A model generated the notes under the pieces. That model was not told the DNA's origin. It did no database searches and worked only from the letters and a program-made list of their open reading frames with translations. Below are positions 36,765-37,172 of a stretch of 64,000 nucleotides of DNA, one piece after another; the stretch's first letter is position 1; each line of letters begins with the position of its first letter. Source of the stretch: Mesorhizobium sp. NBSH29 (lineage in GTDB: Bacteria; Pseudomonadota; Alphaproteobacteria; Rhizobiales; Rhizobiaceae). Both the position numbers and the translations under genes were made by a program. The stretch lies in assembly GCF_015500055.1 (NCBI RefSeq), contig NZ_CP045492.1, forward strand, positions 382,501-446,500, given 5' to 3'.

Positions 36765-36795
36765 TTGACCTCAACTGCACTTGAAGTCCTAGGGC
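36765..36795 (+). promoter_or_regulatory. MerR/SoxR-type promoter with operator dyad
   Basis: TTGACC (36765-36770) and TAGGGC (36790-36795) are 19 bases apart, the over-long spacer of MerR-family activated promoters. The spacer is covered by a 22-bp dyad (36767-36788, 9 of 11 pairs matching; core CCTCAA...TTGAAG) close to the SoxR-box style CCTCAAG-N-CTTGAGG. A transcript would begin about 20 bases before the ATG at 36819. No MerR-family gene is in the window. Confidence 0.7.
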
Positions 36796-36818
36796 TGGAT
36801 TTCCGAGCCAGCGAAAAG

Positions 36819-37172
36819 ATGGATACCCACCAAATGAACAAGCCGACGCAAACCGCCAAACCCTACTATCGGATCGACAGTTTTCTCGTGCCCGTCGCTG
36901 CACGCACGGAGTTTCTTGCCCGTGTGCACGAGACCCACGCTGTGCTACGCCAACAGGATGGTTTTCGGCAGGATTTTATCGTTGAGCAACACCTTGACGA
37001 GGCCAAATTAACGATTGTGACCGTCGCAGAATGGGATAACGAGGACGTGGTTGCAAACGCCCGCAAACAGGTTCAGGTCCTGCACGCAAAGAACAATTTC
37101 GACCCACAGCAGTTTTTTGCCAGACTCGGCATCAAGGCCGAGATGGGCAATTACCGGCCAGTTGCCGAATGA
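36819..37172 (+). CDS. Small antibiotic-biosynthesis-monooxygenase-like protein
   Basis: 117 residues from ATG at 36819 (112 if the ATG at 36834 is used). Pattern 'RIDSFLVPVAARTEFLAR' then 'QDGFRQDFIVEQ' and 'LTIVTVAEWDNEDVVANAR' is that of the dimeric alpha-beta-barrel ABM fold, used by monooxygenases and heme-degrading enzymes. No catalytic residue is diagnostic. It sits behind a MerR/SoxR-type promoter, which hints at a stress-inducible oxidative or redox role; this is inference. Converges on secA. Confidence 0.75.
   Translation: MDTHQMNKPTQTAKPYYRIDSFLVPVAARTEFLARVHETHAVLRQQDGFRQDFIVEQHLDEAKLTIVTVAEWDNEDVVANARKQVQVLHAKNNFDPQQFFARLGIKAEMGNYRPVAE

Follow-up and report, generated by a model that had tools for sequence, protein, structure and literature searches.

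Which regulator acts on the promoter-like element that lies upstream of a small ABM-family gene in Mesorhizobium sp. NBSH29? The window, that is, the whole 64,000-nucleotide stretch analysed here (C1:382501-446500), carries on its plus strand, at 36765-36795, the hexamer TTGACC, a 19-bp spacer and the hexamer TAGGGC. The −35 element TTGACC (36765..36770, plus strand) overlaps a 22-bp dyad of the SoxR-box type, GACCTCAACTGCACTTGAAGTC (36767..36788), in which 9 of 11 pairs are complementary and whose core is ACCTCAACTGCACTTGAAGT (36768-36787). The spacer itself, TCAACTGCACTTGAAGTCC, occupies 36771-36789, and the −10-like element TAGGGC (36790..36795, plus strand) follows 19 bp downstream of TTGACC. 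The first-pass annotation had described the two hexamers, the dyad with its 9 of 11 pairs and the 19-bp spacing, and this description proved exact on recheck. The dyad is CCTCAA-N6-TTGAGG-like, with TTGAAGT in the window one base off TTGAGGT. TAGGGC is a poor −10 hexamer; its first two positions, TA, are common to the four homologs that were aligned first. A general sigma-70 scan, which covers 16-18-bp spacers only, did not report the site. SoxR belongs to the MerR family, acts as a dimer and carries a [2Fe-2S] cluster as its redox switch, and a SoxR-activated promoter is recognized by a box placed between −35 and −10 elements that are separated by a 19-bp spacer, which is the arrangement found here. 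From its sequence, we judge the element in front of the ABM-like gene to be a SoxR-activated promoter, with a probability of about 0.88.

We examined how often such a sequence occurs by chance and where else it is found. With up to 3 mismatches allowed, TTGACCTCAAN6TTGANGTNNTA had a single match in the window, one with 0 mismatches, and 100 shuffles of the window gave a mean of 0.03 matches (3 shuffles with a match). The exact promoter pattern, searched in 297 genomes of the order, was present at 30 sites spread over 26 genomes; two of these sites belong to the genome from which the window comes. The reversed pattern, used as a control, yielded zero among the matches listed. Within the 4.0-Mb genome, the shorter pattern ACCTCAAN6TTGANGT was found with 0 mismatches at three places, namely the window site, C1:2158819 and C1:3474970. 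When up to 2 mismatches were allowed, there were 46 genome-wide matches versus 40 for the reversed control, and therefore only the exact sites are informative. A genome scan for further copies of the dyad had been proposed by the first-pass annotation; the two other exact sites both adjoin SoxR-like or MerR-type genes. The promoter element is thus well above chance.

Whether the element is kept in front of homologous genes was determined with protein-level searches, which matched 7 of 60 relatives and 30 of 397 genomes of the order (E<=1e-10); a first scan of genome contigs with the window protein alone as query found no relative. The window's family and order together provided 34 distinct homologs with DNA, for each of which 300 bp upstream was scored. 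The 34 leave out L030 and L039, which duplicate L037 and L031, as well as L036, for which tblastn gave no match, and a second G340 hit with no locus, and weaker homologs fall outside the count because it takes in matches at E<=1e-10 from at most 11 first-look candidates per genome. The promoter TTGACCTCAA-N6-TTGAGGT-N2-TA was present within 300 bp, at no more than 3 of 19 mismatches, before 22 of the 34 homologs; the remaining 12 had at least 7 of 19 mismatches, and the gap between the two groups was empty. Downstream control stretches of the same genes gave 0 of 280 at 4 or fewer mismatches, the best having 5. The −35 element TTGACC was identical in all 22 box-bearing homologs, these rows being selected for motif similarity, and in four aligned homologous upstream regions 17 of the 21 invariant columns lay inside the promoter.

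A search of named genomes, queried with peptides from box-bearing members, gave 71 ABM loci, most of them from Rhizobium, and the promoter was found at 3 or fewer mismatches in 63 of these, whereas none of 802 control stretches matched at 5 or fewer mismatches. The homologs are phylogenetically non-independent. Carriers of the promoter also included Billgrantia, Alkalilimnicola, Aliidiomarina (2), Sphingomonas (4) and the actinobacterium Couchioplanes. The eight named loci without it belong to two Devosia, two Nitratireductor (5 mismatches each), the Rhizobiales isolate L165 and three metagenome-assembled genomes, of Hydrogenophilales, Lysobacteraceae and Ectothiorhodospiraceae. Conservation of the dyad and of the 19-bp spacing upstream of orthologs had been named beforehand as a point on which the first-pass reading could fail; both are conserved, though 12 of the 34 homologs lack them. 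Two box-less ABM homologs, L033 and L034, carry a different upstream dyad, TTGACAACATGTTGTCA or close to it, which suggests another regulator for these genes.

We then compared the distribution of the box with that of SoxR, which was called when a protein scored above the cut-off of TIGR01950, with at most 9 first-look candidates scored per genome. By this measure all 22 box-bearing genomes encode SoxR, as do 6 of the 12 box-less genomes; across the order the figure is 95 of 397 genomes. The difference between box-bearing and box-less genomes gives a Fisher p of 0.0007, a guide only because the genomes are not independent samples. Four genomes (G344, G261, G129 and G092) have soxR and the ABM gene in divergent orientation, with the box in the space that separates them, upstream of the ABM gene. 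A divergent gene with the SoxR cysteine motif was found by script at 16 of the 30 exact promoter sites in the 297 genomes, and at two further exact sites, L067 and L083, soxR is divergent by coordinates. Counting against SoxR are the 6 of 12 box-less homologs that reside in SoxR-encoding genomes, and the use of the same box by at least one other MerR subfamily. Taken together, the conservation before homologs, the co-occurrence with soxR and the four divergent soxR-ABM genomes support the SoxR-type promoter that the first-pass annotation had proposed.

The window's own genome has nine TIGR01950 matches, of which only C1:3163909-3164319 is above the SoxR cut-off. All nine lie outside the window, so that the absence of the regulator from it, as noted at first pass, holds. 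The SoxR protein is intact (180 bits versus a cut-off of 116.9) and contains the CX2CXCX5C motif, CIGCGCLSLDRC, with its four cysteines. It is 83% identical to SoxR of G001, of the same genus, and 49% identical to that of G012, of the same family. Its gene is 2.74 Mb from the site along the 3.64-Mb contig, and the box before it is weak (4 of 19 mismatches).

The box could instead be read by another MerR-family activator, such as the product of G000:C1:3474540-3474965, whose gene has a near-identical box, ACCTCAAGTTGGCTTGAAGT. A non-SoxR MerR-type gene is divergent at 5 of the 30 exact sites (L069, L070, L077, L078 and L079), and the regulator therefore cannot be told from the box alone. However, homologs of C1:3474540 (E<=1e-15) are present in only 7 of the 22 genomes with both the ABM gene and the box, versus 22 of 22 for SoxR, and it is soxR that stands divergent from the ABM gene in the four genomes named above. 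On the count of 7 of 22, this protein was rejected as the first-choice regulator, and we consider regulation by a MerR-family activator other than SoxR unlikely. Less likely still is that SoxR binds the site chiefly as a repressor, as on the soxR side of the mfsA-soxR region of Stenotrophomonas maltophilia, or that it drives transcription on the opposite strand. The dyad is nearly symmetric, and in a passage of PMC4411124 the S. maltophilia soxR promoter is described as repressed by SoxR at −4 to +14; yet the box in the window, which lies between −35 and −10 elements facing the ABM gene, has the geometry of activation, and, with both strands searched, the best score was obtained in the orientation toward the ABM gene at 22 of 22 box-bearing loci, these loci having been chosen by a scan in that orientation.

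A dyad that matched by chance and has no regulatory role would account for the poor −10 hexamer and for the 12 of 34 homologs that lack the element. Against this stand the position and spacing kept upstream of homologs (22 of 34, and 63 of 71 in the named genomes), the control stretches, in which the best matches had 5 mismatches (n=280) and 6 mismatches (n=802), and the zero for the reversed pattern in the 297-genome scan, among the matches listed. On the basis of the window shuffles, the reversed-pattern scan and the downstream control stretches, a chance match was rejected; it is strongly disfavoured and, in our judgement, barely credible.

Regulation by SoxR would proceed as follows. The protein would sit on the dyad between the TTGACC −35 and the TAGGGC −10, whose 19-bp separation would be too long for good contact with sigma-70 RNA polymerase. 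According to the portion of PMC4411124 consulted, oxidised SoxR distorts such a long-spacer promoter and makes it usable by RNA polymerase. By what is established for SoxR elsewhere, redox-active compounds would oxidise its cluster and the spacer would be distorted, upon which the ABM-type gene would be transcribed from about 36802, a start and an induction that are likewise predicted from SoxR biology. The enzyme made would then oxidise a redox-active aromatic compound. Its substrate would probably be a phenazine or a quinone, a suggestion made only by analogy with PumA and phenazine methosulfate.

The target gene (36819..37172, plus strand) has 117 codons from ATG 36819, or 112 from ATG 36834. 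The latter, Met6, aligns with the starts of homologs, an agreement that is only suggestive because those starts are the nearest ATG picked by script. Against the Pfam ABM profile (PF03992), the window member scored 20.5 bits (E=0.00055), below the gathering cut-off of 23.1, and 20 of 22 aligned members, the window protein among them, matched PF03992 at E<=0.001 (best 4.2e-8). By these profile matches the protein is a member of the ABM monooxygenase family, where "monooxygenase" is the family name and the oxygenase activity is putative. A profile of the family searched against the PDB had SnoaB as its best match (E=4.6e-4), a phmmer search of the PDB with the single protein yielded nothing beyond a meaningless match at E 0.91, and no NCBIfam family for the ABM protein was found at E<=0.001. 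A single-sequence fold prediction showed the order beta-alpha-beta-beta-alpha-alpha-beta expected for the family, but with low confidence (mean pLDDT 63). In a Foldseek search with this low-confidence model, the best natural-protein match was again SnoaB (E 0.016), and no match was found at E<=0.001. SnoaB (PDB 3kg0, 3kg1, 3kng) is a cofactor-independent oxygenase, to which the window protein bears only a remote similarity. Annotation covered 34-40 kb of the window, where the neighbours of the gene are secA and a gene resembling those for polysaccharide flippases, the two names having been assigned by eye from the open reading frames.

How does this locus compare with known SoxR systems? We take PumA and PA2274 of P. 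aeruginosa to be the same protein. The closest counterpart of the promoter is that of mfsA in S. maltophilia, whose box, ACCTCAACTGCAGTTGAGGT, as given in the part of PMC4411124 seen, is identical to the window box in 18 of 20 bases. The same part of that paper places the mfsA box between −35 and −10 elements with a 19-bp spacer, as in the window, and reports that SoxR binds it and that binding is lost on mutation. The E. coli SoxR box, as printed in a passage of PMC4411124, matches the window box in 14 of 18 bases. In S. maltophilia the gene controlled encodes an efflux pump and adjoins soxR, whereas the target in the window is an ABM-type gene far from soxR.

Monooxygenases under SoxR have been described elsewhere. 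Excerpts of PMC4146615 include PA2274 in the SoxR regulon of P. aeruginosa, and SCO1909/ecaB, a monooxygenase similar to ActVA-ORF6 and PA2274, in that of S. coelicolor. An excerpt of PMC8859910, citing Sporer 2018, describes PumA of P. aeruginosa as SoxR-controlled and acting on phenazines, and adds that its product from phenazine methosulfate is a more oxidised compound. The statement in the first-pass annotation that no link between the target gene and a regulator of this kind is known therefore does not stand, since SoxR control is published for PA2274 and SCO1909 (PMC4146615, in part) and for PumA (PMC8859910, in part). PA2274, SCO1909/ecaB and PumA resemble the present case in that a monooxygenase is under SoxR, a likeness of description in the passages cited. 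P. aeruginosa and S. coelicolor make redox-active antibiotics, whereas the carriers of the ABM gene found here are mainly rhizobia. In the open-licence literature, no paper stating a SoxR-ABM pairing in rhizobia was found among the matches listed. The matched portions of PMC12300148 and PMC3904158 mention both subjects of the search and draw no link between them.

These results indicate that the ABM-like gene is very probably a solid but expected addition to the SoxR regulon. The same switch stands before most of the relatives examined, and therefore the locus extends a known circuit and does not constitute a new one. A study of soxR in Agrobacterium is said to have atu5152 as its target locus, and a literature search for atu5152 found nothing. 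The present finding would extend the SoxR-ABM pairing to rhizobia and several other groups, and would tie an uncharacterised group of ABM-like proteins to redox stress. Conservation of the pairing across rhizobia and beyond supports a role of SoxR mainly as a sensor of redox-active small molecules. With family members preceded by the promoter in rhizobia, in sphingomonads, in some Gammaproteobacteria and in one actinobacterium, we tentatively suggest, at somewhat less than even odds, that SoxR and a stand-alone PumA/SnoaB-like oxygenase may form a conserved detoxification module in presumed non-producers of redox-active antibiotics, which would destroy phenazines or quinones from neighbours or plants. 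Such a module is made somewhat likelier by the precedent of PumA, as described in part of PMC8859910; SoxR-controlled monooxygenases were previously known in antibiotic producers (PMC4146615 and PMC8859910, passages).

Inspection of the window's own genome also revealed related boxes at other loci. Just upstream of its soxR gene, a SoxR-box-like promoter, TTGACTTCAAGTGCGGTTGAACAGTTA, lies on the minus strand at about 1945-1971 of L027 and faces away from soxR. On the side that it faces no clear gene was seen, and Rfam at gathering thresholds gave no RNA in L027; a similar promoter is present in the soxR locus of G001 (L098). A perfect palindromic SoxR box at C1:2158819-2158838 (L025:2320-2339) faces an MFS gene. 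On its other side is a soxR-like gene (L025:2400-2723), which looks decayed, with the N-terminal part absent from the match and two of the four cluster cysteines missing in the frame read. The near-identical box at C1:3474970-3474989 (L026:2471-2490) lies between the MerR-type gene, which lacks the SoxR cysteine motif, and an MFS gene divergent from it.
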